Assembly (NCBI GenBank): GCA_022820365.1
Contig: JAJEFO010000059.1
Coordinates: forward strand, 1-48,644
DNA length: 48,644 nucleotides
Reading direction: 5' to 3'
Origin: Silicimonas sp.
Lineage (GTDB): Bacteria > Pseudomonadota > Alphaproteobacteria > Rhodobacterales > Rhodobacteraceae
The translations under genes and the position numbers were made by a program. The notes under the pieces are model-generated. The model had not been told where the DNA came from. It searched no databases and saw only the letters and a list, made by a program, of their open reading frames with translations. Positions within the stretch are counted from its first letter, which is position 1; each line of letters begins with the position of its first letter. This document shows positions 30,694-46,668 of the stretch, in pieces.

Positions 30694-30838
30694 GTCCGCG
30701 CATATACAGCGATGCCCCGCCATGCGAAAGTCGCGTTGCCGCCTGCGCTGAAAGGGCTGAGCTACAAGTTTCTAGGAGTGACGGACCCGTTTTGCGCTTG
30801 ACTGGTCATGATGGGCACATTACGTCGGGCCACCTAGT

Positions 30839-30914
30839 GGGCCGTTAGCTCAGTTGGTAGAGCAACTGACTTTTAATCAGTAGGTCGCAGGTTCGATCCC
30901 TGCACGGCTCACCA
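30839..30914 (+). tRNA. tRNA-Lys (TTT)
   Basis: A 76-base cloverleaf with encoded CCA. The anticodon loop CTTTTAA lies between ACTGA and TCAGT, giving anticodon TTT. The acceptor GGGCCGT pairs with ACGGCTC, discriminator A. Its 3' portion from 30886 is repeated at 38625-38654, marking it as the likely target of an inserted element. Confidence 0.96.
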
Positions 30915-30915
30915 C
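30886..30915 (+). repeat. Direct repeat, left copy (tRNA-Lys 3' end, putative attL)
   Basis: The T arm, 3' acceptor strand and CCA of tRNA-Lys plus one base. The 30 bases match 38625-38654 at 28 positions in the same orientation. A repeated tRNA 3' end is the classical footprint of site-specific integration, with this copy inside the intact tRNA. Confidence 0.7.
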
Positions 30916-31315
30916 AAAAAGTATTTTATTGCAATACATTGTAGCACAATGATCTCTCGGACATGACACCAGGTCAGTCCACTGGCAACCTATTGACAAA
31001 CAATTCAAACCGACTTGCTGACGCCAAACGGCACATAGCGTCCCCGACTCGCAGCAGCGACAGTTCCGCACTGAGAAATTGGCAGGTATCGACGGGATAC
31101 GCTGCGGGTCACCAGTAGTGCGGCGAAATTTGCTGCCAAAGAAGGCGCCAAGCGGTCTTGAGCATGATGCATCGAAACACGATTGGCCGGTCGTTCCCGT
31201 ACCCCGAATTGCTGCCGCCCGGGCATCGGTCCCCGCGTCCACGGCCGAAAGCCCGGAAACGCCGCCTCGAATCAACGAGCGGCACTGCAACTTTGGACTC
31301 GGTGAGCGATTCTGG
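30916..31315. other. AT-rich junction next to tRNA-Lys, no gene recognised
   Basis: 400 bp between tRNA-Lys and the SDR end. The first ~100 bp are AT-rich with small inverted repeats (GTATT/AATAC at 30920-30936, ATTGT/ACAAT at 30939-30951). Minus frames of 73 and 137 codons exist but show no integrase or other known motif, and the longer one runs into the tRNA, giving the common false peptide SRAGIEPATY. Confidence 0.4.
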
Positions 31316-32890
31316 TCAAGGCAGGTAGCTTGCCAACTCTGCCTCTACCTCTTTTGGGTCGTGTTCCAGCCCCGCACGCAGCCCTTGCGCCATGTCACCG
31401 GGATAAATGTCGTCCTCGTCGCCCGTCTCCAGCCCGTTGAGCGCAGCGCGTACCACATCCGCCGGATCGAGCTTGGGCGGCGGGAAGTCTTTGCTCATGT
31501 CGGTGTCCACCGCCCCGGGCATGATCGCGAACACTTTTGTTCCTTGCGCCTTTAGCTCTGCCCGAACTGCCTGGGTCATGCTCAGGCTCGCTGCCTTCGA
31601 CGCACAGAGCGTGCCCATCATCGGAAGCGCAACCCGGCTGAGAATCGACAGCATGTTGACAATCGCGCCACCGCCGTTGGCCTTGAGCACTGGCGCGAAA
31701 GCGCGGATCATGGAAAGCGTGCCGAAGTAGTTCACCTCCATTTCGCGTCGGGCGTCTTCCATGGAGGGGTTCTTCAGTGCGCCGGTATTGCTGTTGAAAC
31801 CGGCGTTGTTGATCAAGAGCGTCACATCACTGGCTTCAGTCGCGGCCTTGGCCACCGCTTCGGCGTCGGTGATGTCCAGCGCAATCTTGACCACGCGGGG
31901 GTCGTCAGGCAGCGCCGCCACATCGCGCGCAGCGGCATAGACCTTTGCCGCGCCGCGCAGCAAGAGCGCCTCGACGAAACGAGCACCGATGCCGCGATTG
32001 GCCCCGGTAACAAAGACGGTGGCGTTCTCAATTTCCATGGCAAAAGGTCCTTTCACGGTATCGGCGAGCCAATCCGGGTCGTATTCCGGCGACGGCGCTG
32101 CTCGCAGCAGTTTCTTAGTGTAGCTGTGGCTCGGAGATTCGAACACCCGCCTGACGGTACCGTCCTCGCAGATCTTGCCGCGCTGCATGACCAGCACCCG
32201 GTCGGCGAGTGAGCGTACCACGGCCAGATCATGGGTAATAAAGAGGACCGACAGGCCCCGCTGGTCGCGCAGGTCCAGCAGCAACCGAAGGATGCGTGCC
32301 TGATTGGAGACATCTAGCCCCGAAACAACCTCGTCGGCGATGATGAGTTTCGGCGCGCCGGCCAGCGCCCGCGCGATGCCCACCCGCTGGCGTTGTCCGC
32401 CCGAGATGCGATGGGGGTAGAGACCCTTGAACTCTGACGCAAGTCCCACCTGATCGAGCAGTTCATCCACGGTGGTCGCCGCGCCAAAATTCCGCAGCGG
32501 CACATCAAGCGACTGCCCGATCGAGCGGCGCGGGTTCAGCGACGACAGCGGATCCTGAAAGATCATCTGGATGTCTCTGCGGCACGCCCGCCAGCGCGGG
32601 TACCAGGCACGGTCCCTGGTGCGGGTCGAGGCAATGTTGCTCGGGTCGACGATTGGTCGACCCTGGAACAGAAGGCTTCCGGCCTGGATCTGGGTCAAAC
32701 CTGCGATGGCCCGGCCCAATGTGGTCTTGCCTGAGCCGCTCTCGCCCACCAGCGCCAGTATCTCACCCGGCTGCAAAGCGAAATTGATGTTCGACAAGAT
32801 GGGAAAGCCCTTGTCATCCTTGCGCAGGAAGCGGCGGCGCATGCCCAGGCGGACCCCGAGCCCTCGTGCCTCCAAGAGTGGCTCAACCAT
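31316..32890 (-). CDS. Peptide-type ABC ATPase fused in frame to a short-chain dehydrogenase
   Basis: One 524-residue frame. Residues 1-284 are a DppF/OppF-type ATPase: Walker A GESGSGKT, signature ISGGQRQR, Walker B LIIADEVVSGLD, ending like other DppF proteins (SPEYDPDWL). From 32038 (MEIENATVFVTGANRGIG) the frame continues as an SDR of 240 residues with the NAD(P) motif TGANRGIG, NNAG and a catalytic Ser region, but the usual YxxxK is LCASK, so the catalytic Tyr is Leu. AAAGGA lies nine bases before the internal ATG, so the SDR may also be made separately. Whether the fusion is real or both forms coexist is open. Last gene of the cassette operon. Confidence 0.85.
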   Translation of the reverse strand: MVEPLLEARGLGVRLGMRRRFLRKDDKGFPILSNINFALQPGEILALVGESGSGKTTLGRAIAGLTQIQAGSLLFQGRPIVDPSNIASTRTRDRAWYPRWRACRRDIQMIFQDPLSSLNPRRSIGQSLDVPLRNFGAATTVDELLDQVGLASEFKGLYPHRISGGQRQRVGIARALAGAPKLIIADEVVSGLDVSNQARILRLLLDLRDQRGLSVLFITHDLAVVRSLADRVLVMQRGKICEDGTVRRVFESPSHSYTKKLLRAAPSPEYDPDWLADTVKGPFAMEIENATVFVTGANRGIGARFVEALLLRGAAKVYAAARDVAALPDDPRVVKIALDITDAEAVAKAATEASDVTLLINNAGFNSNTGALKNPSMEDARREMEVNYFGTLSMIRAFAPVLKANGGGAIVNMLSILSRVALPMMGTLCASKAASLSMTQAVRAELKAQGTKVFAIMPGAVDTDMSKDFPPPKLDPADVVRAALNGLETGDEDDIYPGDMAQGLRAGLEHDPKEVEAELASYLP

Positions 32891-33716
32891 CGCCGGCCTC
32901 CGCGATCATGCGCTCGATCAAGGCAGTCGGCACCGGTTCGAGCCCTTGCCCCGCATGATCGGGGCGCGGGGTGGCCGCCAAGAGCGCTTGCGAATAGGCG
33001 TGGGCGGGCCGGTTGATGAGATCGGTGCAGGCGGCCTGTTCGATCACCCGCCCGCCATGCATCACGGTCACGGAATGGCAGATCTTGGCCACCACGCAGA
33101 GGTCATGAGTGACAAACATCAGCCCCACGCCGGTTTCGCGCTGCAATTCCCGGATCAGGTGCAGAACGTCCTTCTGCACGGTGACATCCAGCGCGGTCGT
33201 GGGTTCGTCGGCGATCACGAGCTTGGGACGCGAGGCGAAAGCTGCCGCGATGAGCGCACGCTGGCGCATGCCGCCGGAGAGCACGTGCGGGAAGGACTTG
33301 GCAACCTTGGTCGCGGAAGGAATGCGCACCGCGTCAAGCCAGCGGATGACTTCCATCTTGGCGTCGGCCGTGCCTTTGGGCAGCACTTCTGCAAGCTGCG
33401 CAGAGATCGTCCGGCAGGGGTTCAGCGCGCTCAACGGGTCCTGCGGGATCAGCGCCATGTCGCGTTTCAGAAATGCACGGCGGGCGCGCGGATGCAGTGC
33501 CAGAAGGTCCGTTCCATTAAGCCTGATCGCACCAGCCGTTACAGTGACATCACGAGGCAAGACTCCCAAGATCGCCTTGCCCAGCATCGACTTGCCGGCA
33601 CCGCTCTCGCCCACGACGCCCGCGATCTCGGAAGCCTCAATTATCAGGTTGACCTCGCGCAGCACGGGGGTACCGCGCAGGCCGAGCGACAGGCTATCGA
33701 CCTGCAGCAAGCTCAT
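32883..33716 (-). CDS. Peptide-type ABC transporter ATPase (DppD-like)
   Basis: A 277-residue nucleotide-binding subunit with Walker A GESGAGKS, signature LSGGMRQR and Walker B LVIADEPTTALD, plus the C-terminal oligopeptide extension (RPAHAYSQALLAATPRPD). It energises import together with the fused ATPase encoded downstream. The ATG overlaps the permease stop as ATGA, and its own stop overlaps the next start by eight bases, so the genes are tightly coupled. The Nickel/peptide family covers diverse ligands. Confidence 0.92.
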   Translation of the reverse strand: MSLLQVDSLSLGLRGTPVLREVNLIIEASEIAGVVGESGAGKSMLGKAILGVLPRDVTVTAGAIRLNGTDLLALHPRARRAFLKRDMALIPQDPLSALNPCRTISAQLAEVLPKGTADAKMEVIRWLDAVRIPSATKVAKSFPHVLSGGMRQRALIAAAFASRPKLVIADEPTTALDVTVQKDVLHLIRELQRETGVGLMFVTHDLCVVAKICHSVTVMHGGRVIEQAACTDLINRPAHAYSQALLAATPRPDHAGQGLEPVPTALIERMIAEAGDG

Positions 33717-34639
33717 TTGCGCAGCACCGGGTCGAGGTAGAACCGCAGCGCATCGCCCATAGCGTTCAGCCCGAGGATCGTGATTACCAGGGCACCCACG
33801 GGGAACGCCATGACCCACCAGGCCTCGTTGATGACGCGGCGACCCTCGGCAATCATGTCGCCCCAAGTCGCTGCGCCTGAGGACACCGAGAGCGAGACGA
33901 AGCTGAGGATTGTCTCAACCGTGATCGCGATGCCGATCTCGAAGAAGAAGAGCGTGACCAAGAGCGGCTGCACGTTGGGCAGCACCTCTCGGATCAGGAT
34001 CGACAGGTCGCTGCCACCGGTGATGCGAGCGGCGTCGATATAGTCTCGGCTGCGTTGCTGCAGCACGTCGGCGCGCACAACGCGGGCAAACCGCGTCCAG
34101 TCGATCACCGCCACCACGATGATCACCGATGTCAGCGTCGTGCCCAGCATCGCCACCAGGATGATCGACAGCAAAACAGGCGGGAAAGACAACCACACAT
34201 CCACGATCCGGCTGATTGCGTTGTCGATCCAGCCGCCATAGAACCCCGCCAACGCGCCCAGGATCACCCCTGCCAGCGCTGCGAGGCAAGCCACCGACAC
34301 GCCCACGATCACCGCCAGTCGTGCGCCGTAGATCAGCCGCGACGCCACATCACGCCCCAAGCTATCGGTGCCCAGCGGATAGGCCCAGGCGTTCTCGATG
34401 CCGAAATAGGCCAGATCATCGTTTAGCCAGGCGGGTGGCATGTTGATCAGAAAGAGGTCGTCCAGCGTGGGGTCATGCGGCGCGATCCAAGGCGCAAAAA
34501 GCGCCGCGATCAGCAGCGCTCCGATTGCCGCGCAGCCAAAGACCATCCGCAGACGGGAAATACTCTCGGTCGAGCGCTCTAACCCGGTACCGCCGCCTCC
34601 ACGACCTTTCTCCAGGGAAAAACTCTCAACACTGCTCAT
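33713..34639 (-). CDS. Peptide-type ABC transporter permease (DppC-like)
   Basis: A 308-residue membrane permease with an N-terminal extension, one early span and the conserved C-terminal five-span core. The opening signature HPLGTDSLGRDV-like segment appears here as YPLGTDSLGRDVASRLIYGAR, typical of DppC/OppC, and the EAA loop follows around DAARITGGSDLSILIREVLPN. It pairs with the DppB-like permease, whose stop its start overlaps by four bases (ATGA). Confidence 0.92.
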   Translation of the reverse strand: MSSVESFSLEKGRGGGGTGLERSTESISRLRMVFGCAAIGALLIAALFAPWIAPHDPTLDDLFLINMPPAWLNDDLAYFGIENAWAYPLGTDSLGRDVASRLIYGARLAVIVGVSVACLAALAGVILGALAGFYGGWIDNAISRIVDVWLSFPPVLLSIILVAMLGTTLTSVIIVVAVIDWTRFARVVRADVLQQRSRDYIDAARITGGSDLSILIREVLPNVQPLLVTLFFFEIGIAITVETILSFVSLSVSSGAATWGDMIAEGRRVINEAWWVMAFPVGALVITILGLNAMGDALRFYLDPVLRK

Positions 34640-35640
34640 CGCGACGTCCTCAGACGGGGATCGGCGGCGCGGTAAAGTTCATTGCTGGCCAGGTTGATCA
34701 GGATGAAGATCAGCGCAAAGACCAGCACGATCCCCTGAATCAGCGGAAGGTCGCGATTGATGACCGCGGAGATCGCGGTGGAGCCGATGCCGGGCCATGA
34801 AAACTGACGTTCGATAAGCACGGTGCCGCCGATGAGGAATGTCAGTTGCACCGAGGTGAGCGCGATGGTCGGGATCATGGCGTTGCGCAGGGCTTCGCCC
34901 AGGACAATGGCAAGCCTGCTCTTGCCCTTGGTTTGGGCGAGCATGACATAGTCCTGCGCCATCGCCTCTTCCAGCGCGCCTTTCAGCACCCGCGTGATGC
35001 CCGCCGCCAAAGGCAAACCGAGGGCCAGCGCAGGCAGGACTGCGTAGCGTATGAGCTCCGCGAAGGCTTCAAATCGGAGCGTGACCAGCGACTCCAACAG
35101 GTAGAAATTCGTGGCGAAGTCCTGCGCCGTTCGTGGGTCGAACCGGCCTGAGACGGGCATCATCGGCGCAAAGAGCGTCACCGCCAGGATGAAGATCAGC
35201 GCCCAGAGAAAGTCGGGGATCGCTTGCGCCAGCCCCGCCAGCCCGTCGATGGCCAGCGTCGCGCTGTCCACTTGCAACCAGACCGCCAGGATGGAGAAGG
35301 CGAAGGACAGCACCAAGGCGATGAGGCTTGCCAGCAGCACCAGTTCCAGCGTGGCGGGCAGGCGGTCGAGGATGATCTCCATCACCGGCAAGCGGAACTG
35401 CGTCGACATCCCGAAATCAAGCCACGCGACGTTGCGCAGCCAGATCACGTATTGCGCGGGAATTGACTTGTCGAGCCCGTAAAGCCGCTCAAGATTGGCG
35501 CGCACCTCGTCCGTCGCGCCCGGCGGCAGCATCATCGAGATCGGGTCTCCGGGCACCAGCCGCAAGATCACGAAGATCACCACCGACACCCCCAGAAGCG
35601 TCAGGAAAATCGAACCGATCGTGACGAGCAGGCGGGCCAT
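34636..35640 (-). CDS. Peptide-type ABC transporter permease (DppB-like)
   Basis: A 334-residue membrane permease. The N-terminal span followed by VSVVIFVILRLVPGDPISMM is the DppB/OppB hallmark, and the C-terminal region contains AMAQDYVMLAQTKGKSRLAIVLGEALRNAMIPT, the EAA coupling loop. The ATG at 35640 is favoured over a GTG at 35658; neither has a strong ribosome site. It follows the binding-protein gene after a strong intergenic hairpin, which could reduce its expression relative to that gene. Confidence 0.9.
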   Translation of the reverse strand: MARLLVTIGSIFLTLLGVSVVIFVILRLVPGDPISMMLPPGATDEVRANLERLYGLDKSIPAQYVIWLRNVAWLDFGMSTQFRLPVMEIILDRLPATLELVLLASLIALVLSFAFSILAVWLQVDSATLAIDGLAGLAQAIPDFLWALIFILAVTLFAPMMPVSGRFDPRTAQDFATNFYLLESLVTLRFEAFAELIRYAVLPALALGLPLAAGITRVLKGALEEAMAQDYVMLAQTKGKSRLAIVLGEALRNAMIPTIALTSVQLTFLIGGTVLIERQFSWPGIGSTAISAVINRDLPLIQGIVLVFALIFILINLASNELYRAADPRLRTSR

Positions 35641-35657
35641 TTCAGAGTGCAGAGTCA

Positions 35658-35724
35658 CCTGTCCCGGGCTTGATCCCGGACCCCAACCTTTGGTCTGGCG
35701 AGGTCCCGGATCGGGCCCGGGACG
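35658..35724. repeat. Intergenic stem-loop (REP-like palindrome)
   Basis: Arms of 22 bases at 35661-35682 and 35703-35724 (starting GTCCCGGGC) pair at 19 positions around a 20-base loop. It fills the gap between the binding-protein stop and the permease start. Such GTCCCGGG-rich palindromes are common intergenic repeats in Alphaproteobacteria. Here it may stabilise upstream mRNA or attenuate downstream transcription. Confidence 0.75.
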
Positions 35725-35733
35725 AAGTCGAGC

Positions 35734-37236
35734 CTAGTTGCTGCTGACGTTCTGCGGCAACAGGAAGTTCGCCACATGCGGCGTGACAGACAGCCCGTCG
35801 CGATAGATGATCGGCTGAACGAACTGCAGTAGCGGGATCACCATCGCGTTCTCGGCGATATAGGCGTCTACCCTTTGATAGCCTGCGATACGGACGTCCT
35901 CGTCTTCCTCGCCCCAGAGCGGCCCGATCATCGCGTCCACGTCATCGGTGTCCCAGGTCGAATGCGGCGAGGGGCCGAACATCGAGAACCCGGTCGAGGT
36001 CGAAGGGTCACCGATGGAGTTGCCCCAGTTGTAGAAGGCCGCCGGCGCCAGGGCGTCGCGGGCCCGCAGATCGAAATGCTTGGCGATTTCATAGACCTCG
36101 ATTTCGGCCTCGATGCCTACACGTTTCCACATTCCCGTGACCGCCTGGATCATCTCGTAATCCTTGGGCTTGAAGCCACGGGTGGTCTGGATCTTGAACT
36201 TCACCGGATTGTCAGTGGAATAACCAGACGCCGCCAGCAGTTCCTTGGATTTGTCGGGGTCATAGGCCACGGTCGTCTCCGCCGTGAAGGCCGCGTATTC
36301 TGGTGCCTGCAAAGTGTCGATGGGCACGCCATAGCCGCGCAAGAGCCGGTCCACGATCAGGTCCTTGTTGATCGCATGGGCGGCGGCCTTGCGGACATTC
36401 GCGTCCTCCATCACGCCCACATCGTTGATGAAGATCATGCCGATGTCAGAGACCGGCGTGGTTACCCCATTGAGCCCGTCCTTGGCGGCGAGGCGGTCGT
36501 ACTCCTCGTACGGAATCTCCAGCGTGATGTCAGACGCGCCGGTCTCGACCTCGGCCACGCGGGCAGAGGCGTCGGGGAGGAACTTGAAGATCACCATCTC
36601 GAACTCGGGTGCGCCGCCCCAGTATTCGTCATAGCGCTTGAGCCGCACGAAAGAGTTCGCCACGTACTCGTCGACCATGTAGGGACCAGAGCCGATGGGG
36701 GACTTCTCAAAGCCCTCCGCGCCGACCTCGGTGTAGTAGTCCTTGGGCAGCACATAAGCGGTCAGGAACGCCATCCACTTGAAAATCGTGGGATCAAAAC
36801 GCAGCACATCCGCCTCGACCCGGTTGCCGTCCACAGTGAAGTTCCCAAGCGTCGACCACAGGAACTGGATCGGATTGCCGGTCTCTTCCTTGCCTGCGCG
36901 TTCCAGCGACCATACGACGTCCGCAGGCGTCACCGGATCGCCGTTATGCCAGAACGCACCTTCGCGCACCTCCATGAAGACCTTCGTGCGGTCCTCGTTC
37001 CAGCCCCACTCGGTCAAGAGCCCAGGGCGGAAGGACAGATCCGGGTTCTGGTCGATGTACTGGTCATAGACCGACTTGTAGATCGACTGGATCGTGGGGT
37101 TCACCGCCGAGACGCCCACGGTCGCGTCCCAAGATGGCAGCGACACGTTATAGGCAATCGTCAGCGTAGAGTCGTCGGCAAAGGCGACATTCGCCGCCAG
37201 CGCCGCACCGGCCAATGGGCCCAACAGCTTCTTCAT
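35734..37236 (-). CDS. Peptide/nickel-type ABC substrate-binding protein
   Basis: A 500-residue periplasmic protein of the SBP family 5. The signal peptide MKKLLGPLAGAALAANVAFA is followed by DDSTLTIAYNVSLPSWD, and the body contains the family signature region (NPDLSFRPGLLTEWGWNEDRTKVFMEVREGAFWHNGDPVTPADVVWSLER). It captures the ligand for the two permeases and two ATPases encoded downstream. It sits 27 bp after the dienelactone hydrolase gene in the same operon. Family 5 proteins bind peptides, but also sugars, opines or aromatics, so the ligand is open. Confidence 0.92.
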   Translation of the reverse strand: MKKLLGPLAGAALAANVAFADDSTLTIAYNVSLPSWDATVGVSAVNPTIQSIYKSVYDQYIDQNPDLSFRPGLLTEWGWNEDRTKVFMEVREGAFWHNGDPVTPADVVWSLERAGKEETGNPIQFLWSTLGNFTVDGNRVEADVLRFDPTIFKWMAFLTAYVLPKDYYTEVGAEGFEKSPIGSGPYMVDEYVANSFVRLKRYDEYWGGAPEFEMVIFKFLPDASARVAEVETGASDITLEIPYEEYDRLAAKDGLNGVTTPVSDIGMIFINDVGVMEDANVRKAAAHAINKDLIVDRLLRGYGVPIDTLQAPEYAAFTAETTVAYDPDKSKELLAASGYSTDNPVKFKIQTTRGFKPKDYEMIQAVTGMWKRVGIEAEIEVYEIAKHFDLRARDALAPAAFYNWGNSIGDPSTSTGFSMFGPSPHSTWDTDDVDAMIGPLWGEEDEDVRIAGYQRVDAYIAENAMVIPLLQFVQPIIYRDGLSVTPHVANFLLPQNVSSN

Positions 37237-37263
37237 GTTTATCTCCCTGATGTTCTTTGTTGT

Positions 37264-38505
37264 TCAGATTGGCTTGCCTTCGCTTGAGGCCCAATTGGCC
37301 ATCAGTTCGTTTGAAGGCAGGGTCTCGTCCACCAGCTTTTTCGCGGTCTCCTGGCCCGCCACTGGCAGGCCCGCTGGATCAAGCACGCCGATCTGCACCA
37401 GCACCGAGGCCTGATCCCAGTAGATGTGCTCGTGATAGAGCTTGTCGCCGCGGAAGTTCACGATCGCCACAAGCGGGATCTCGACATATTTTCCGGTCGG
37501 CGCGACGCCGGGCAGCATCCAGTCGATCTCACGGTCATGCGTAAAGCAAAAGAGCATCTCATCAACCAGCCGGTCGGTGCCGATGGTGCGCGAAATCGGG
37601 ATCAGCTTGGTGTCGTCGGGGTTGGCGTCGACGAAGTGGTGCTTGTAAAAGCGCGACAGGTGCTTGTAGCCCACCCCGCCCGTCATGGTCGGGATGTGGT
37701 TGACGTAAGGCTCGGCCACCATTGTCTTCATGGTCTCATGAACGTCGCGGGTGGCGAACTCGTGATAGCAGTGCATGTCCCACAGGTGGCTGAGGTCATG
37801 GATCGGCCCCAGCACCTTGCGCAGCAGAGTCAGCGAGCGCGAATAGGCCATCATGGTCGAAGGCTTGTCGAAGCTGTCGCGGCCATGGGTGGCAAAGGCG
37901 TGGTCGACGCCCGCGTAGTCGTAGAACTCGAAATCGGGGCGGCTGGCAAAGGCTTCCTTGATCTTTGCGACGGCTTCGGGCGGAGCGAACTTGTCGAGTT
38001 CGGCGGTATGGAAGACCATCGGGCAGGTGATGTTCTTGCCCTCGTCGAGGCTCTCCTCGATGGCAACGCCGTAGTAGGACACTGCGCAGTCCACATCCGT
38101 CCGCGCTGCCGTCAGATAGGCGAGCTTGCCGCCCAAGCAGTAGCCCAGCGCGCCGACCTTGCCTGCGACCTCGTCCATCTCGCGCATATGGGCAATCGTG
38201 TCCCCGACATCCTTGATGCCCTGGTCCACGTCGAATTTCCGGTAAAAGCCGAATGCCTTGCCGAAATCCTCCTCGGAGTAGCCAAGGTTCACATCCGGCT
38301 CCATCCGCCAGAAGAGGTCCGGCACCAGCACGACATAACCCTCTTCGGCGAAGTGATCCGCCATCGACCGCATGTAGGCGTTGATTCCGAAGATCTCTTG
38401 CAGAAGCACCAGTCCTGGGCCCGAGCCCTTTTCTGGCTTTGTCATGTAAGCTTTGAACGTGCCGCCATCCGCTGCTGTCACGTCAATGAACGAACCTTCT
38501 GCCAT
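37264..38505 (-). CDS. Dienelactone hydrolase with C-terminal NTF2-like domain
   Basis: A 413-residue two-domain protein. Residues 1-230 are a dienelactone hydrolase: the nucleophile Cys sits in GYCLGG, the acid Asp in AELDKFAPP and the base His in GVDHAFATHG. Residues ~240-410 (LSHLWDMHCYHEFATRDV ... VEIPLVAIVNFRGDKLYHEHIYWDQASVLVQIGVLDP) form an NTF2/SnoaL-like fold as in ester cyclases. DLH enzymes open lactones from aromatic degradation. The tail may bind substrate or add a second reaction. It heads the cassette operon, 120 bp from the right repeat. The true substrate is unknown. Confidence 0.88.
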   Translation of the reverse strand: MAEGSFIDVTAADGGTFKAYMTKPEKGSGPGLVLLQEIFGINAYMRSMADHFAEEGYVVLVPDLFWRMEPDVNLGYSEEDFGKAFGFYRKFDVDQGIKDVGDTIAHMREMDEVAGKVGALGYCLGGKLAYLTAARTDVDCAVSYYGVAIEESLDEGKNITCPMVFHTAELDKFAPPEAVAKIKEAFASRPDFEFYDYAGVDHAFATHGRDSFDKPSTMMAYSRSLTLLRKVLGPIHDLSHLWDMHCYHEFATRDVHETMKTMVAEPYVNHIPTMTGGVGYKHLSRFYKHHFVDANPDDTKLIPISRTIGTDRLVDEMLFCFTHDREIDWMLPGVAPTGKYVEIPLVAIVNFRGDKLYHEHIYWDQASVLVQIGVLDPAGLPVAGQETAKKLVDETLPSNELMANWASSEGKPI

Positions 38506-38624
38506 GCAAGTCTCTCCTGTCCCAATGAAGGCCTTGGCCTCCGATCTTCTTGCATAGCAGATAGTAAGAAGTCACGAAAGACGTGTATATGTTGCTGCCA
38601 AGGCTGAATTTTTTGATCAACATG

Positions 38625-38654
38625 CGCAGGTTCGATCACTGCGCGGCTCACCAC
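38625..38654 (+). repeat. Direct repeat, right copy (tRNA-Lys 3' end fragment, putative attR)
   Basis: CGCAGGTTCGATCACTGCGC and the following GGCTCACCAC copy the tRNA-Lys 3' end (30886-30915) with two mismatches, one in the T stem and one in the acceptor strand. No tRNA body precedes it, so it is not a functional gene. Same orientation as the left copy. Confidence 0.7.
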
Positions 38655-38727
38655 TTTCTACGAAGCACTTCCTCCGCGCCTGGCACCCCGCGGTCAGCCT
38701 TCGCCTGTCGGGCACCTCGCCGGGCCT

Positions 38728-38748
38728 CGGCGCGTCGCCGACGCGCCG
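38728..38748. repeat. GC-rich palindrome after the nucleotidase gene
   Basis: CGGCGCGTCG, one base, then CGACGCGCCG: a perfect ten-base stem, 18 bases after the nucleotidase stop. No T-run follows on either strand, so it is not a standard intrinsic terminator, but it may stop transcription or protect the mRNA end. Confidence 0.5.
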
Positions 38749-38765
38749 ATCGGGCAACGGGTTGA

Positions 38766-40724
38766 TTACAGGCTGATACGGTACCGGACGAATCCGTCGT
38801 CGCCGTCACCTGCGGGCTCGATTGAGACACCCTCGACGTCCGAGATGACATCGACGCTTTTCGGTCCCGTATCGAACAGAACGGAAGTGCCGGGCAGCTC
38901 CATGAACGACCAATTTGCATCAGCCGCCGGGTCGATGGTGCCCTGCTCCACGATGTAGCGCACGATGACGTCCCGGTTCGTGTCGGGCCCCTCGAAGACG
39001 ATGGTCGAGCCATCGGCGCCCGGAAAGTTGCCGCCGCCGCTCGCGCGATAGTTGTTGGTGGCAATCACGAACTCCGCCTCCAGATCCAGCGGCTCGCCAT
39101 TGAAGGTCAAGTCCACGATCCTGTTGGCGTCGGGGTCAATCAATGCGCCGCGCGAGCCGAACCGCGACGGTTGGCTCAAGTCGATCTTGTACTGAACACC
39201 GTCGATCACGTCGAAGTTGTAGGACGGGAATTGTGGGTTCAGAAGAATTTGATCGTCCTCTCCCGGAACTACCTGATTGAAGATGCCCGCAGACCGTTCC
39301 AGCCAGTCCTTGACCTGCTGGCCCGTGACTTTCACTGCCCGCACAGTATTCGGATACAGGTATAGATCGGCCACGTTCTTTATGGCCACATTACCGACCG
39401 GAACGTCGGTGTAATACTCTGGGCCACCACGCCCGCCCGCCTTGAAGGGCGCGGCGGCAGAAAGCAGCGGCAATCTTTCGTACTTTGTGCCCTTCAGCAT
39501 CTCGGTCAGGTACCAGCTTTGCGCCTTTGACACGATCTGGACCGATGGATCATCGGCAACGAGAGCGAAGTAGGAATGAAGTGGCGCCGAGGTCTTGCCG
39601 ACGGCACGGCGCACATAGGCGAGTGTCGCGTGATGCATGTCGGCCACGCTGTCCAGCACGACCTGATCGCTTTCTACAAGGGCCGTGACTGAGCGATCCT
39701 CGTTGCGTTGCGAGATCGGACGTGCCGCGGCGCTGTGGCCAACTACGCGCCATTCGCCTCCGGATGTCTCCAGCATCAGGTCGATGAGCCCGAGATGGGA
39801 GCCCCAGAACCCGGCCATGACGGCGGGCGTGCCGTGGATCGTGCCGTTGACCACGTCGACGGCCTGCTGACCTTCATAGGTCGCAGAGGGGAACACGTTG
39901 TGGTGGTGGCCCGAGAGTACTGCGTCAATTCCCTCGACCGCGGCAAGCGGCACCGCTGCGTTGCCCATGAATTCGGTATGCTCTGCAGCGCCAATGCCGG
40001 AATGCGACAGCGCAATGATGATGTCGGCACCCTGCTCTTTCATCACCGGCACATAAGCCTTGGCGGAATCCACGATGTCGCGGGCATGTACGTTGCCTTC
40101 CAAATGGCGACGGTCCCAAGTCATGATCTGCGGCGGAACAAAGCCGATCAGGCCAATCCTGATCTGGTGCATGTGCCCGATGCCGTCGACGATCTCCTTG
40201 TCCATCACGACGTATGGCGGAACCAAGGTGACGTCCCTGGTCGGGTCCGCGCCCAGCTCCTTGGCGACATTGGCAGAAATCACCGGAAAATTGGCGCCGA
40301 CGAGCGACTTCATCAGGAAATCGAGCCCATAGTTGAACTCGTGATTTCCGAGCGTCGATGCGTCAAACTCCAGCGTGTTCAGCGCGGTGATGATCGGGTG
40401 CATGTCCCCGTCCTTCATGCCCCGCTCATAGGCCATGTAATCGCCCATCGGGTTCCCCTGCAAGAAGTCGCCGTTGTCGTAGACGACCGAGTTCGCGGCT
40501 TCGCTCCGGATCTCGCGCACGATCGAGGCCACGCGCGCCAGACCCATCGTGTCGCGTTCACGGTCGGCATAGTAGTCGTAGGGCCATATATGCATATGAA
40601 GATCGGTGGTCTCCATGATGCGCAGGTGGGCCTGATTGGCAGCGGCACTTGCGGAGAACGGGTGCAACGCCGCGAAGCTGGCTGTTGCTGCAAGAAACCC
40701 GCGACGACTGAAATCATAAGACAT
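38766..40724 (-). CDS. CpdB-type 2',3'-cyclic nucleotide phosphodiesterase / 3'-nucleotidase
   Basis: A 652-residue exported metallophosphatase. The N-terminus SRRGFLAATASFAALHPFSASA is a Tat signal. Metal-binding motifs run in order: TTDLHMHIW, YDNGDFLQGNP, LGNHEFNYG, LSHSGIG and SGHHHN. The C-terminal 5'-nucleotidase domain carries AGGRGGPEYY and NNYRASGGGNFPG. The WPYDYY segment and the length favour the CpdB branch over 5'-nucleotidase UshA. It would scavenge nucleotides and phosphate in the periplasm. GAGG six bases upstream fixes the ATG at 40724. It lies 68 bp downstream of the MttB-like gene; a functional link is not evident. Confidence 0.88.
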   Translation of the reverse strand: MSYDFSRRGFLAATASFAALHPFSASAAANQAHLRIMETTDLHMHIWPYDYYADRERDTMGLARVASIVREIRSEAANSVVYDNGDFLQGNPMGDYMAYERGMKDGDMHPIITALNTLEFDASTLGNHEFNYGLDFLMKSLVGANFPVISANVAKELGADPTRDVTLVPPYVVMDKEIVDGIGHMHQIRIGLIGFVPPQIMTWDRRHLEGNVHARDIVDSAKAYVPVMKEQGADIIIALSHSGIGAAEHTEFMGNAAVPLAAVEGIDAVLSGHHHNVFPSATYEGQQAVDVVNGTIHGTPAVMAGFWGSHLGLIDLMLETSGGEWRVVGHSAAARPISQRNEDRSVTALVESDQVVLDSVADMHHATLAYVRRAVGKTSAPLHSYFALVADDPSVQIVSKAQSWYLTEMLKGTKYERLPLLSAAAPFKAGGRGGPEYYTDVPVGNVAIKNVADLYLYPNTVRAVKVTGQQVKDWLERSAGIFNQVVPGEDDQILLNPQFPSYNFDVIDGVQYKIDLSQPSRFGSRGALIDPDANRIVDLTFNGEPLDLEAEFVIATNNYRASGGGNFPGADGSTIVFEGPDTNRDVIVRYIVEQGTIDPAADANWSFMELPGTSVLFDTGPKSVDVISDVEGVSIEPAGDGDDGFVRYRISL

Positions 40725-40792
40725 TTCGCACCTCATGCTTGCTTGATCGGTGTTGTCCCGATCCGTTGTCCCAATCCGAAAGTTCGGTCATC

Positions 40793-42346
40793 TCAGGCTT
40801 GCATTTCCATGGCGGCGATGTCCAGCAGGATCGGAAACTCAGCAAGCACCTGCGCATCTGCGGCACCGAAATAATTCGGGAAATGGCTGTCGAGCAGCCG
40901 GTCGGATTTCGCCTTGGCGCGGCGCATCAGGTCCGGCCTGCCGTCGCCTTCCCAGGTGTCCGTGCGGTCGCGGTTCATCAGGTCGGGATACACGAATTCG
41001 GTGTTCATGTAGCCTAATGTGTGGGCGTTCCCCAGGAAATGGCCCGGGTCAATGGTGCAATCGTGGATCACGTCCACGGCGAGCGTCTCGTCGGTGACCT
41101 CGATGCCGCGCAGGGTACGCAGGATCATCCCCACCGCCTCGTCATCAATCACCATGCTTTCAAAGGAACAGCCCATCAGGCTGCCCATCATGCCGCCCAC
41201 CTCGCACAGCCGGTTGCCGCCGGCATGTGCCGCCAACGCGATGGTCAGCGCCTTTTCCAGCCCGTATTGCGCGTCGGGCAGCTTGGCGTCGGTCATGCCG
41301 CAGCCGACCGAGGTGGGCAGGCTGTAGAACTGCCCCATCTGGATGGCGGCGGCAGAGATCAGCGCCTGCTCGCCCGACCCGCCGGTGAACGATCCCGTGC
41401 GCAGATCGGTGATGAAGGGCCAGGCGGCAAAACTGATCGGCGTGCCGGGATTGATCAGGTTGACGATCACTACGCAGGCCAGCGTTTCGGCCACGCTCTG
41501 GGCCAGCGTTCCGGCAAGCGTCGCCGGCGCGGTGGCACCCGCCTGCGGCGGGATTGCCAGATCGGCGCAAAGCCCCAGCTTGGCCGTGTCGATCAGGATT
41601 TCGAGGTTTTCCTTGCCGAAGCGCAGCGGCGAGACCACCGGGCAACCGCCAAAGATGACCGACGGTCTTTCCAGGAACGCGCCTTCGCCGCCCGAGGCAA
41701 GGTCGAACATGCGGATGGCGTGAGGGATATGGCTGCGATCCCGGAAGCTGAGACAGGCGGGTTTCTGGCTGCCCGCGAGAATCGCATAGAGCATGTTCAT
41801 GTCATGCTGAAAGTCGTCGGGCACATCGGTGGCCAGCACCGTGTCTCCCAGCATGTGAATATTGTCGAGCCGGTCGACCAGCCGGGTGAAATTGTAGATG
41901 TCGCGCAGGGTGGACGGCCGGTAGCTTTGGGTCTCGGCCTCGTAAGTCGTGACGGCGGTGCCGGAGTTGACGAAATAGACGGACTTGCCGGTCACATGCA
42001 TGTCGTCCCGGCCGGCGCGCTCGCCCCTTGCATAGACCATGAACTCGCTGGCGGTTTGGGTCAGCACATCCTCGACCAGTGCGGCGGGAAAGCAGAGCCG
42101 CCCAAATTCGTTAAGCACCGCGCCTTTGGGCAGCATCAAGGCGTTCAGTTCCTCGGTACTGTCGCCAAGCCCGGTGCGTTCGAGAATGCGCAGCGCGGCG
42201 CGGTGGATCGCCTGCATGTCCGCGTCCGAGAGCGGCTGATAGCGGCCACCCGGGATCCCGGCGCGGACCGCCTCGTTCCCGGTGCTGGCCTCGCGGGCCG
42301 CCCGCCGCGCGGCGCGCCCGCCGGCGCGCTTGTTTTCGGCGTTCAT
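40793..42346 (-). CDS. MttB-family methyltransferase (non-pyrrolysine)
   Basis: A 517-residue TIM-barrel protein of the trimethylamine methyltransferase (MttB) superfamily. After a basic, Ala/Arg-rich N-terminus come LSDADMQAIHRAALRILERTG and the family core (SGTAVTTYEAETQSYRPST, GGCPVVSPLRFGKENLEILID). The reading frame contains no in-frame amber codon, so it is the non-pyrrolysine type, whose characterised members demethylate quaternary amines such as glycine betaine, proline betaine or carnitine onto a corrinoid protein. No corrinoid protein gene lies in the window. Its ATG is one base from the stop of the flavoprotein gene, so the two are coupled. Confidence 0.88.
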   Translation of the reverse strand: MNAENKRAGGRAARRAAREASTGNEAVRAGIPGGRYQPLSDADMQAIHRAALRILERTGLGDSTEELNALMLPKGAVLNEFGRLCFPAALVEDVLTQTASEFMVYARGERAGRDDMHVTGKSVYFVNSGTAVTTYEAETQSYRPSTLRDIYNFTRLVDRLDNIHMLGDTVLATDVPDDFQHDMNMLYAILAGSQKPACLSFRDRSHIPHAIRMFDLASGGEGAFLERPSVIFGGCPVVSPLRFGKENLEILIDTAKLGLCADLAIPPQAGATAPATLAGTLAQSVAETLACVVIVNLINPGTPISFAAWPFITDLRTGSFTGGSGEQALISAAAIQMGQFYSLPTSVGCGMTDAKLPDAQYGLEKALTIALAAHAGGNRLCEVGGMMGSLMGCSFESMVIDDEAVGMILRTLRGIEVTDETLAVDVIHDCTIDPGHFLGNAHTLGYMNTEFVYPDLMNRDRTDTWEGDGRPDLMRRAKAKSDRLLDSHFPNYFGAADAQVLAEFPILLDIAAMEMQA

Positions 42347-42347
42347 C

Positions 42348-44417
42348 TTATTCCTTCTCCCATGGGGACAGGGACACAAGCTCTCGGATGTACTGGTCCG
42401 CGTAGGTCTCTTCGGCGGGGCGTTCGAAATTGCGCGCGGCATTGTGGCCCGACCAGACCGCATCGGCGATCAGACCGGGCGATGCCGCGTCGCCGATCAG
42501 CTGCAGCGTGCCGGTGAGCTTGCCAAGCAGCGCATCGTAGAGCTCCGTTCGCCGCATGCGTTCGGTGACCATGACGATACAGGCCGCCTCGACCCGGGTC
42601 TCTTGCCCGGAAAAAACACAGTTCAGCACGGCCGCACCCGCTGTGGCGGCACCAAGTGTCCGATTGCATCGGATATCCACGCCAAGTTCGATCAGGCGGC
42701 GCTGCACGCGGGGCTGCTCCAAAGTCAGAGAGGTGAAGGGCGACACGATGCTGGCCGGTGTGACGAAGCAAGTGGCCAGGCCGGCGGCGGCGATCTTTTC
42801 GGCCAGGACCCCGGCAAGATAGCCCTGATCGTCGTCATAGATCATCACCGGGCCCGACTGTGGCAAGCGACCCGCCATGATGTCGTCGGGCGTAAGCACC
42901 TGGGCATCGGCGGCAATCCGCGGTGGAGTGCGGCGGGTCGAGCGGCCAATTCCGGTGGTGATCCACCATGCTCCGGTCGCGACAAATACGTTGGGAATAC
43001 CCAACTCCAGCACCTCTTCCGCTTGCAACGTGCTTTGCAGGAAAAGGCGCGCATTCGTTATCTGGCTCAGTCGATAGGCGCGGTGGTCGGCCACGCGCGC
43101 CCACGCGGCAAGGCCCGGCAGCGCGGCCTCTTTCTTCACACGCCCGCCGACCGCGTCAGAGGCTTCGGCCAGCGTCACCTCATAGCCCCGCCGCGCCAGC
43201 GACAGGGCGCATTCCAGCCCGGCAGGCCCCGCGCCGATCACCAGCGCCTCGGTTTCGCTGCCCTTGGGCGGAATGATCTCAGGGTGCCAACCCCTGCGCC
43301 ATTCCTCGCCCATCGTCGGATTCTGGGTGCAGCGGATGGGGATGGCGATCGAGTCTGACGACACGCAGATATTGCAGCCGATGCACTCGCGGATATCGTC
43401 GATCCGGCCTTCTTCGATCTTGCGGGGCAGAAACGGGTCGGCGATCGAGGGCCGCGCAGCGCCGATGAAATCGACGATGCCCTTGCGGACCATCGAGGCC
43501 ATCATGTCGGGCGAGGTCAGCCGCCCGACACCGACCACGGGTTTCGACGTCACCTGTTTGACGAAGTCGATATAGTCGTTCTGATGGCCTTCTTCGGGCT
43601 GAAACCGCGTGGTGATGCTGTCATTGGACCAGTCGCTGACATTGACGTCCCAAAGATCGGGCAGATTCGCCAGCATCTCGACCACGGCGCGGCCCTCCTC
43701 CGCGGCCTGCATGCCGTCCTTGCCCAGCATCTCGTCCACCGCAAAGCGGAAGGCCACGGCGCACGTATCGCCCACGGCTTCGCGCGTGTCTTCCAGCAGT
43801 TCCCGGGTCAGGCGCACGCGGTTTTCCAGGCTGCCACCGTATTCGTCGCTGCGCGTGTTCAGATGCGGCTGCATGAATTGCTGTGTGATCGACAGCCCGT
43901 GGCCGGCATAGACATAGACGATGTCGAATCCCGCGTCGCGGGCGCGCAGCGCGGCATCGCGGTGCCAGCGGCGCAAGTCGCGGATGTCGGACTTGTCCAT
44001 CGCGCGGGCGTGGCGGGGAAAGACGTCTGCCACCGACATCTCGGATGGTGCCAGCACCGGCACGCGGGACAGGTGGTTGAGCGCGAATGGGCCGTTGTGA
44101 ACCAGTTCGACGGCGGCGAGTGCCCCCTTGTCATGCACCGCCTCGGTCATCAATTGCAGCGCCGGAATGTCGCGTTCGTCCCAAAGCCGCCCCTCTGTAT
44201 AGGGCGACAGATCCGAAGTGGGGTGAATCTCGGTCTCCTGGTTCGAGACCACGGCCCAGCCGCCCTCTGCCTTCATCGCGCGCATGGCGGCCTCGGCCCG
44301 GGGGCGGAGATGGCCCAATCCGCTGCAGTGGGGCACCTGATAGAACCGATTGCGGGCCATCACCGGCCCGATCCTCACCGGCTCGAACAGGACAGAATAT
44401 CTGGTCGCATCCTGCAT
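42348..44417 (-). CDS. Trimethylamine-dehydrogenase-like iron-sulfur flavoprotein
   Basis: A 689-residue amine dehydrogenase of the TMADH/Old Yellow Enzyme-type family: FMN barrel (1-345), 4Fe-4S site (CIGCNIC then CTQN ~12 residues later) and FAD/ADP-binding part (ALVIGAGPAGLEC). VPHC ends in Cys31, matching the Cys that links FMN covalently in TMADH. Of the three aromatic residues caging trimethylamine, the second is kept (Trp in VSDW), but the first (Tyr60) aligns with Glu61 and the third (Trp355) with Asp in CVSSD. It likely acts on another N-methyl amine. DgcA-type dimethylglycine enzymes are an alternative. Operon with the MttB-like gene and an ABC importer. Confidence 0.88.
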   Translation of the reverse strand: MQDATRYSVLFEPVRIGPVMARNRFYQVPHCSGLGHLRPRAEAAMRAMKAEGGWAVVSNQETEIHPTSDLSPYTEGRLWDERDIPALQLMTEAVHDKGALAAVELVHNGPFALNHLSRVPVLAPSEMSVADVFPRHARAMDKSDIRDLRRWHRDAALRARDAGFDIVYVYAGHGLSITQQFMQPHLNTRSDEYGGSLENRVRLTRELLEDTREAVGDTCAVAFRFAVDEMLGKDGMQAAEEGRAVVEMLANLPDLWDVNVSDWSNDSITTRFQPEEGHQNDYIDFVKQVTSKPVVGVGRLTSPDMMASMVRKGIVDFIGAARPSIADPFLPRKIEEGRIDDIRECIGCNICVSSDSIAIPIRCTQNPTMGEEWRRGWHPEIIPPKGSETEALVIGAGPAGLECALSLARRGYEVTLAEASDAVGGRVKKEAALPGLAAWARVADHRAYRLSQITNARLFLQSTLQAEEVLELGIPNVFVATGAWWITTGIGRSTRRTPPRIAADAQVLTPDDIMAGRLPQSGPVMIYDDDQGYLAGVLAEKIAAAGLATCFVTPASIVSPFTSLTLEQPRVQRRLIELGVDIRCNRTLGAATAGAAVLNCVFSGQETRVEAACIVMVTERMRRTELYDALLGKLTGTLQLIGDAASPGLIADAVWSGHNAARNFERPAEETYADQYIRELVSLSPWEKE

Positions 44418-44478
44418 GGTTGCGTGTCTTTCCGTGCGAAGGCCGGGGCGCATGGACGCCCCGGGAATGATTTTGCGC

Positions 44479-45537
44479 CTAGAAGCCAGCTTTGATGCGT
44501 TCGAATTCCTTCAGCATCTTTGCCTCAAGTTCAGGGTTGACCGCATCGAAGAACAGCGAACCCTCGAAGAACGCGTTGGGATCGTCGAACCCGTAGGCTT
44601 TGATGGTTTCCTGATCGGAAATCGGGTAGGCATCGGCATTGGCATGCGGGTAGCCCCAGCTTTCGATGATATATTTTCCCGAGGCTGGCTCGCTGAGCGC
44701 GTTCAACAGGTCATAGACCTGATCCACCGACGTGGTCGAGGATTTCATGTGCACGTAGCCGCAGACCCAGGTTGCGATGCCCTTTGTCACGTCGCGCATC
44801 ATCTTGGCCGGGGTTTCGTTCCAGATCAGGTTCAGTTCCGACTGGTTCCAGGCCCAGCCCATGACCAGCTCTCCCGAGGCCATGGCCTGATCGAGCTGCC
44901 CGGCATCGGTCCAGTAAAAGCGCACATTGGGGTGCACCTTGCGCAGGAAATCCGACGCTTCCTTGAACTGCTCATCCGTCATGTCGGTGTAGTTCGCTGC
45001 ATTCCCGGTCGCCAGCGCGGCCAGCGCATAGGCGTTCGAGGCGGCATCGGCCAGCGACACCTTGCCGGCATAGGCCGGGTCGGCCATCAGCTGCAGCGAG
45101 ATATCCTCGTCGCTGATCATGTCTGTGCGGTAGATCAGCCCAGTATTGCCCCATTCAAAGGGCATCATCCAGACCTGGCCGTCAATCTCGATCCCATCAA
45201 CATTCTTGATCTGAGGCAGCAGCGCGTCCCAGTGTTTCAGCTTTGACGTGTCCAGCGGCTGCAACAGCCCCGCCGCGCGCCACTTGCGCACCGCGTCAGA
45301 GCAGGGATGCGCCAGATCTACGCTAAAGCCCGAATGCAGCTTGGTGAACGCCTCTTCCTGGCTACCAAAGAACGTGTAGCTGGGAGAGCCGCCATGGGCT
45401 TCCACATAGGTGCCGAAAAAGCCCGGGTCCTCGTACCCGGACCAGTCGAAGACAGTCAGCGTATCGGCATCGGCCACCGCCATGCCGGCGGCAAGCGTGG
45501 TCGAAAGGGCCCAAGCCCCGAAGGTTCCAAATCTCAT
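44479..45537 (-). CDS. Polyamine-type ABC substrate-binding protein (PotD/PotF-like)
   Basis: A 352-residue periplasmic binding protein. The signal peptide (FGAWALSTTLAAGMAVADA) precedes DTLTVFDWSGYEDPGFF, the typical start of spermidine/putrescine-type proteins, followed by FGSQEEAFTKLHSG and MPFEWGNTGLIYRTD. It should deliver an organic cation to the PotABC-like transporter encoded directly upstream. GGGAGG before the ATG at 45537 supports this start. Link to the downstream demethylase genes suggests an N-methylated amine ligand, which is inference. Confidence 0.9.
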   Translation of the reverse strand: MRFGTFGAWALSTTLAAGMAVADADTLTVFDWSGYEDPGFFGTYVEAHGGSPSYTFFGSQEEAFTKLHSGFSVDLAHPCSDAVRKWRAAGLLQPLDTSKLKHWDALLPQIKNVDGIEIDGQVWMMPFEWGNTGLIYRTDMISDEDISLQLMADPAYAGKVSLADAASNAYALAALATGNAANYTDMTDEQFKEASDFLRKVHPNVRFYWTDAGQLDQAMASGELVMGWAWNQSELNLIWNETPAKMMRDVTKGIATWVCGYVHMKSSTTSVDQVYDLLNALSEPASGKYIIESWGYPHANADAYPISDQETIKAYGFDDPNAFFEGSLFFDAVNPELEAKMLKEFERIKAGF

Positions 45538-45559
45538 GTTTTTCCTCCCTGATTTGAAC

Positions 45560-46660
45560 TCATTGATCCTGTTGTCCAAGATCGATCACCGAGTCCCCCA
45601 AGAGCCCCAGCCAGACCTGGTCCCCTTGCCGGTAATCGACAGTGTGAAAATAGTTCGGCACCGACACCGCGACCGGGCGGTCGATGCCGTCGACCTGCAC
45701 GTGGTAGTGGACGTTTTCGCCGTAAAAGGCAACGTCGCTGACCGTGCCCCGAACCGTGGCGTCATAGTCGGCCGGCTGCGCCTTGGCGATTTCAAGCTGT
45801 TCGGGGCGGATGCCGAGCATCGCCGATTTGCCCGGGGTTTCGACATTGGGATTTGCCGGGATCGCAAGCGCGCCGAACCCGGCGGCGGTGACAGAGAGTT
45901 TTCCGGAGCTTTCCGCCGTCACCTCGCCAGGGATGAAATTCATCTCGCCAATGAATGAGGCCACCTTGCTGTTGCAGGGCCGGGCATAGAGCGTTGCAGG
46001 GTCATCCACCTGCACCAGCCGCCCGTCGAACATCACGCCGATCCGGTCGGACATGGTCATCGCCTCGTACTGGTCATGGGTTACCATGACAAAGGTGATG
46101 CCCAGGCTGCGCTGAAGATGGCGCATCTCGAACTGCATCTGTTCCCGCAGTTTCTTGTCGAGCGCCGACAGCGGTTCATCCAGCAGCAGCACCCGCGGCC
46201 GCATGACCAGGGCGCGGGCCAAGGCCACGCGCTGCCGCTGACCGCCCGAAAGCTCTGTCGCGCCACGCCTTTCCAGCCCGCCCAGCTCAACCATTTCCAG
46301 CGCTTCGGCCACGCGGGCGGCGATCTCTGGCTTGGGCACCTTCTGGCTGCGCAGCCCGTAAGCCACGTTGTCGCCCACATTCCGATGCGGAAAGATCGCG
46401 TAGCTCTGAAACACCATGTTCGTGGGGCGGCGGTTGGCCGGGATGCCGGCCATGTCGCGCCCGTCGATCTCGACCCGGCCTTGGGTAGGCTCTTGAAACC
46501 CCGCAATCATCCTGAGCGCCGTGGTCTTGCCGCAACCCGACGGCCCGAGCAGGGAAAAGAACTCTCCCTCTTTCAGCTCCAACGACATGGCCGACACGGC
46601 CTGAAAGCTGCCAAAGGACTTGCCGACATTGGAAAGCGAGATGATGGGGGTGTCGGTCAT
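45560..46660 (-). CDS. Polyamine-type ABC transporter ATPase (PotA-like)
   Basis: A 366-residue ATPase with Walker A GPSGCGKTT at 39-47, signature LSGGQRQR, Walker B LLLDEPLSALD and a C-terminal TOBE domain, as in PotA. It energises the two permeases encoded upstream and shares an operon with the binding protein 22 bp downstream. All nucleotide-binding motifs are intact. Confidence 0.93.
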   Translation of the reverse strand: MTDTPIISLSNVGKSFGSFQAVSAMSLELKEGEFFSLLGPSGCGKTTALRMIAGFQEPTQGRVEIDGRDMAGIPANRRPTNMVFQSYAIFPHRNVGDNVAYGLRSQKVPKPEIAARVAEALEMVELGGLERRGATELSGGQRQRVALARALVMRPRVLLLDEPLSALDKKLREQMQFEMRHLQRSLGITFVMVTHDQYEAMTMSDRIGVMFDGRLVQVDDPATLYARPCNSKVASFIGEMNFIPGEVTAESSGKLSVTAAGFGALAIPANPNVETPGKSAMLGIRPEQLEIAKAQPADYDATVRGTVSDVAFYGENVHYHVQVDGIDRPVAVSVPNYFHTVDYRQGDQVWLGLLGDSVIDLGQQDQ

Positions 46661-46668
46661 GTTCGGCC

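Follow-up and report, generated by a model that had tools for sequence, protein, structure and literature searches.

The window analysed here is a stretch of 48,644 nucleotides from Silicimonas sp. (contig JAJEFO010000059.1, assembly GCA_022820365.1). Between an intact tRNA-Lys gene and cpdB it carries a six-gene operon that encodes an ATP-binding cassette (ABC) importer, a two-domain dienelactone hydrolase (DLH)-SnoaL protein, and a short-chain dehydrogenase/reductase (SDR) domain fused to one of the importer ATPases (Table 1). As a sequence-only reading of the window had noted, the 3' end of the tRNA-Lys gene is repeated in direct orientation 7.7 kb away (28 of 30 positions identical), and this single operon fills the space between. 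The copies are 7739 bp apart, the operon is all on the minus strand, and about 400 bp on the tRNA side hold no assigned gene. The tRNA-end repeat is one of three direct-repeat families of at least 20 bp in 30800-38800; the other two lie within coding regions, with copies 865 and 486 bp apart. When the assembly was probed with 121 bases of the tRNA end, just two places matched, namely the two repeat copies. We propose, as a reasonably probable account, that an operon of the genus has relocated into a decayed tRNA-Lys island, and that the mobile-looking borders belong to the site and not to the operon.

Table 1. Features of the tRNA-Lys to cpdB region of the window.
Feature	Position	Strand	Basis
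tRNA-Lys (UUU; anticodon TTT), intact, integration target	30839-30914	+	ARAGORN; Rfam RF00005
Left copy of 30-bp repeat, attL core inside tRNA 3' end	30886-30915	+	Repeat search; G001 and G002 copies reach back to anticodon loop
Arm-type direct repeat, 67 bp past tRNA	30982-31007	+	3 mismatches to 26-base motif
Dispersed intergenic repeat, ends at operon's left boundary	31205-31315		Genus comparison
ABC ATPase (N-terminal) fused to SDR (C-terminal, PRK08264 type, Leu at usual Tyr site)	31316-32890	-	Profile matches, homologue alignment
ABC ATPase, OppD/NikD type; ATG overlaps preceding stop	32883-33716	-	Profile match
ABC permease, OppC/NikC type	33713-34639	-	Profile match
ABC permease, OppB/NikB type	34636-35658	-	Profile match
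Solute-binding protein, SBP_bac_5	35734-37236	-	Profile match
DLH-SnoaL two-domain protein, IifA family (Cys123, Asp171, His202 kept)	37264-38505	-	Homology; SnoaL match below Pfam cut-off
Conserved operon leader; right limit of homology with congener loci	38506-38613	-	Congener alignment
Right copy of repeat: truncated, degenerate core without arm site	38625-38654	+	Junction as for G002 cpdB-side copy
cpdB (2',3'-cyclic-nucleotide 2'-phosphodiesterase), right flank	38766-40736	-	Profile match

The window's own genome (G000) was compared with seven congeners (G001-G007). In all seven, the DNA common with the window spans petA (partial where the compared stretch starts inside it), mtaB, dapF, and tRNA-Lys, and homology ends at 30914-31033, within about 120 bp past the tRNA gene. 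dapF was present in 57 of the 61 genomes searched, including all seven congeners. Extra copies of the tRNA-Lys 3' end were found in G002 (two on contig C73), G001 (C176), and G006 (C242), with shorter scraps in G001 (C178) and G005 (C157). The sequence-only reading had allowed that the right repeat might be part of a decayed second tRNA-Lys gene present in all relatives; this did not hold, since no extra copy seen starts before the anticodon loop, which is the pattern of att cores, and the 5' half of the gene is missing from all of them. Tyrosine recombinase genes start about 200 bp from the core copies on C73 of G002 and C176 of G001, the former encoding Phage_integrase and Arm-DNA-bind_3 domains.

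Arm-type sites accompany these cores. A motif of the form TTGGCAAACWATTGGCAAACAATYCA lies 65-69 bp past the tRNA gene in the window and in five of the seven congeners (G001, G002, G004, G005, and G006); in G001 and G002 it recurs toward the integrase, at 123-124 bp from the core. Scanning 46 sequences (590,952 bases) returned ten matches, nine of which adjoin a tRNA-Lys core; the tenth is on a G007 contig with an integrase of the same family as the tRNA-Lys-core integrase. Because core copies, arm-type sites, and an integrase at the same core in two congeners are all present, site-specific integration at tRNA-Lys is well supported, and the repeat, as had been proposed from the window alone, is a genuine integration footprint. 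Also as reported there, no integrase was found among the listed open reading frames of at least 90 amino acids between the repeats, nor on the window's contig among the genome-wide integrase matches listed.

The two copies of the repeat differ in condition. In the right copy, a C to A change breaks the T-stem, and this copy is therefore free of tRNA selection. It is short of the core by about 16 bases, and the motif scan found no arm-type site at this end, whereas the left end has one. On the cpdB side of G002 stands a longer copy of the tRNA-Lys 3' end followed by CACCACTTTCCACGATGC; the equivalent in the window is CACCACTTTCTACGAAGC. The right copy aligns with G002, as does the DNA flanking it on the outside, the junction being identical in position. 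Given this common junction, the right copy is probably older than the arrival of the operon, and it looks like an old attR remnant.

The operon itself has another locus in the genus. G001, G002, G004, and G005 each have the complete block from 31315/31320 to 38612/38614, with nucleotide identities of 92.9-94.5%; G003 and G006 have it in fragments. The left flank of this locus is common to G002, G004, G005, and G001 (contigs C39 and C145 in the last). The sequence-only reading had suggested a search of relatives for the same cassette bordered by the same repeat; in the stretches compared (L099-L104 of six congeners, L103 and L104 being partial), no tRNA-Lys core was found at the operon. A tRNA-Asp prediction in L102, which falls within the DLH gene, was discounted as spurious. 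In the window's own genome, a 4.4-kb contig (C114) carries the left flank of the operon locus and the right flank seen in G002, 2.8 kb apart and free of the operon; the same two flanks are 12.6 kb apart in G002. In the operon's place C114 holds genes for a periplasmic binding protein, a TnpB-type (Cas12f1-like_TNB) fragment, and a protein with a weak TbpB match.

At the left boundary of the block, homology with the congener loci begins at the stop codon of the ATPase-SDR gene, and a dispersed repeat of some 100 bp ends at this same breakpoint. That repeat was detected at five further places (two in G002 and one each in G000 contig C112, G006, and G004; L231, L232, L233, L234, and L235), with 71-86% identity over 49-106 bp. 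Between the tRNA side and this repeat, no match was confined to 31034-31204, although one G004 match (31184-31256) extends into the segment.

The course of events that we propose starts from a region downstream of tRNA-Lys that would be an integration hotspot of the genus for elements encoding an Arm-DNA-bind_3 tyrosine recombinase. One such element would have left the core and arm site on the tRNA side (attL) and a truncated core on the cpdB side (an attR remnant), and its integrase and right arm would since have been lost. The resident operon would then have moved in as one block, with its limits some 110 bp before the first gene and at the stop codon of the last gene. The order of these events and the mechanism of the move are our reconstruction, in which the dispersed repeat sits at the left breakpoint. 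Such a site resembles the tRNA-integrated islands and 'grounded' elements described in passages of PMC6379469, with which it shares a duplicated tRNA 3'-end core, an arm-type site, a tyrosine recombinase in relatives, and the loss of excision parts. It differs from them in content, which here is a resident operon of the genus that relatives keep elsewhere, rather than element genes.

A rather unlikely alternative, though the strongest of those we considered, is that the operon arrived as cargo within an integrative element of the tRNA-Lys site, possibly one of congener origin, whose integrase and right arm were deleted later, the repeats being the operon's own borders. The core on both sides, the arm site on the left, and the empty state of the operon's usual locus in G000 all agree with this. 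So does the divergence of the operon among congeners, which is flatter than that of housekeeping genes: at four-fold sites it was 13.0-16.9% in 20 of the 21 pairs among seven genomes (4.5% for G003 and G006), and 11-33% for petA, mtaB, and dapF together. However, the operon does not stand beside a tRNA-Lys core in the congener loci compared, and the right core junction is common to G002, whose contents there differ. The operon tree, moreover, keeps the species topology, if weakly: it has the same unrooted topology as the petA-mtaB-dapF tree for the seven common genomes, with weak support. The operon phylogeny does not show recent acquisition. The history of the operon may be one of a slow synonymous rate with vertical descent, or one of exchange within the genus.

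Composition, offered by the sequence-only reading as a check, gave no foreign signal inside compared with outside. GC content is about 0.60-0.65 between the repeats, compared with 0.59-0.66 in flanking DNA, and drops to 0.58 immediately after the tRNA gene; GC at third codon positions is 0.76-0.83 in the operon (computed for the first ATPase from an upstream in-frame position) against 0.72-0.76 in petA, mtaB, dapF, and cpdB. A foreign composition was thus set aside.

It is improbable that a metagenome assembly artefact joined another strain's operon to this contig. The window's genome is split into 135 contigs, and five congeners match records of metagenome-assembled genomes, but the G000 assembly has no close copy of the operon's first gene besides the one here, the expected operon locus of that genome is operon-free, and 31034-31316, left of the join, matches nothing in the congener operon loci compared. 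Finally, the sequence-only reading had offered either a stripped island, which is the right class, or a cassette mobilised in trans. The latter, as a minimal cassette served by an integrase from another place in the genome, is very improbable. G000 does have 33 tyrosine-recombinase matches, one of them (on C71) 77% identical to the integrase found next to the tRNA-Lys core in G002, but the right side has no arm site and is short of about 16 core bases, and tRNA-Lys cores border no operon locus among those compared in six congeners.

Several points weigh against relocation into a decayed island. The flat divergence of the operon against variable housekeeping genes also fits exchange within the genus, and the split of the operon tree that pairs G000 with G001 has a support of 51. 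The operon-free call on C114 rests on the G002 right flank, the ends of C114 are open, and the other congeners share the right side for just about 100-350 bp past the operon. In G007, the nearest congener, neither cpdB nor the first gene of the operon has a close match. Chimeric joins are possible in the five congeners that match metagenome-assembled genomes. An empty tRNA-Lys site was seen in none of the seven congeners, in five of which the contig ends 0.4-4.2 kb past the tRNA gene, and no arm match lies beside the tRNA gene in G003 and G007. The arm motif had no match in five Markov replicates, a control that is partly circular since the motif was derived from the loci scanned; the constant spacing is the stronger argument for arm sites.

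Two observations concern other parts of the window. Positions 1-141 also occur on contigs C49 and C114 of G000 and mark an assembly branch point. The stretch 40793-48311 encodes, in one run, an MttB-family methyltransferase without an in-frame stop, a flavin adenine dinucleotide (FAD) protein resembling old yellow enzyme, and a Pot-type ABC importer, which are perhaps a set for quaternary-amine catabolism.

We then considered what the operon encodes. The peptide/nickel-type importer set is complete, comprising an SBP_bac_5 protein, two permeases, and two ATPases; the NCBIfam transporter equivalog matches shown were all below cut-off and assign it no substrate. The DLH-SnoaL protein is 57% identical over 99% of its length to an Acinetobacter baumannii protein, and its homology to the IifA family runs full length across both the DLH and SnoaL domains. 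The A. baumannii protein lies in an iif-type cluster: on that stretch, which is unannotated, the adjoining genes gave matches to homologues of IifB, StyA/IifC, flavin reductase, and IifE from a Marinobacterium cluster. The Cys-Asp-His triad of the DLH domain is kept in all 83 homologues aligned. According to passages of PMC4577076, A. baumannii IifA is a 416-residue DLH-family protein within the iifABCDE operon, and in PMC6221969 and PMC7225977 IifA is presented as a two-domain protein with a C-terminal SnoaL fold and as a (putative) cofactor-independent oxygenase whose substrate is 3-hydroxyindolin-2-one. The earlier view of the operon as an import-and-hydrolyse unit for an ester or lactone, and with it the esterase or lactonase reading of this protein, is not supported given the IifA homology, though with the DLH triad intact the esterase or lactonase reading is still conceivable.

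The likeness to IifA (DhoA) of the iif indole operon, as described in parts of PMC4577076, PMC7225977, PMC6221969, PMC12538310, and PMC10974035, extends to the full-length DLH-SnoaL arrangement and the triad. The window operon differs in having no StyA/IifC-type neighbour, in its tie to an ABC importer, and in an SDR of another subfamily with Leu at the Tyr site; its DLH-SnoaL protein is also not on the closest branch to IifA. Weighing against the functional likeness, the nearest relatives after the ABC-linked proteins are Burkholderiaceae proteins that are not iif-type. The ABC-linked members did not form one clade, as a midpoint-rooted tree placed 13 of them in a clade of 60 of 84 (support 0.665). 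Among 83 loci (the best 80 of 172, plus three added), neighbourhoods were labelled StyA (13), peptide-type ABC (12), Rieske (12), Liv ABC (7), and other (39), with most Rieske and several Liv labels resting on matches of about 28-40%. On plasmid pCAR1 (L225, 4698-9233), an IifA homologue stands with SDR and Rieske oxygenase genes near antABC.

A complete indole pathway was not seen. No IifC-type oxygenase was matched in nine genomes, by a search without a positive control, and no anthranilate dioxygenase was over cut-off in seven genomes, all of which had sub-threshold Rieske-type matches. Because the operon has no oxygenase gene and neither enzyme was found, its substrate is probably something other than indole itself. 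The peptide/nickel-family importer would bring in an organic substrate, which the atypical SDR and the IifA-type ring-opening protein would process, and this substrate is possibly an oxidised indole-like (oxindole) compound. The iad auxin operon of Variovorax, in passages of PMC10374108, is alike in that an operon for the oxidation of an indole compound includes an ABC-linked protein that binds this compound. Its binding proteins, however, are of the B-III class for aromatics, whereas the window has an SBP_bac_5 protein and no oxygenase gene.

The fusion of importer ATPase and SDR recurs in these operons: both lie in one open frame in 11 of the 12 operon loci tested besides the window. In L154 (7773-10637) and L155 (8369-11239) the frame extends to a triple fusion, ABC ATPase-SDR-DLH-SnoaL, of 956 residues in L155. 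The gene order SBP-permeases-ATPases-SDR-DLH, where SBP is the solute-binding protein, is found in L150, L153, L154, and L155, and the Rhodobacteraceae loci carry a permutation of it, DLH-SBP-permeases-ATPases-SDR. Classical SDR dehydrogenases rely on the catalytic Tyr of a YxxxK motif. The SDR domain of the window (31316-32038) has Leu at this position, as do 39 of 43 homologues, the other four having Tyr. Its closest solved relative, PDB 5U4S (E 1.2e-67), annotated as a putative short-chain dehydrogenase with no function given, likewise has Leu there; it is a 245-residue chain and is not fused to an ABC ATPase. Exact-term searches of the open PMC literature found no paper that combines these features.

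These features allow a further and doubtful suggestion. The operon might encode a membrane-tethered unit for the uptake and ring opening of oxidised indole-like compounds, in which the importer ATPase is fused to an atypical SDR without the Tyr and, in two distant relatives, the same frame also takes in the IifA-type protein, so that the substrate is handed directly from import to catalysis; selection might then keep the block together and able to relocate into decayed integration sites.

The locus is a warning case, as tRNA-end repeats flanking one operon need not make that operon the mobile unit. The site is of an ordinary kind with a real att footprint, and the operon was probably mistaken for its mobile unit. 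What was vaguely a 'dienelactone hydrolase' importer also becomes testable, joining a widespread IifA-type enzyme, an ABC ATPase-SDR fusion, and a Leu-site SDR lineage, and the operon deserves biochemical study more than it deserves a study of mobility.

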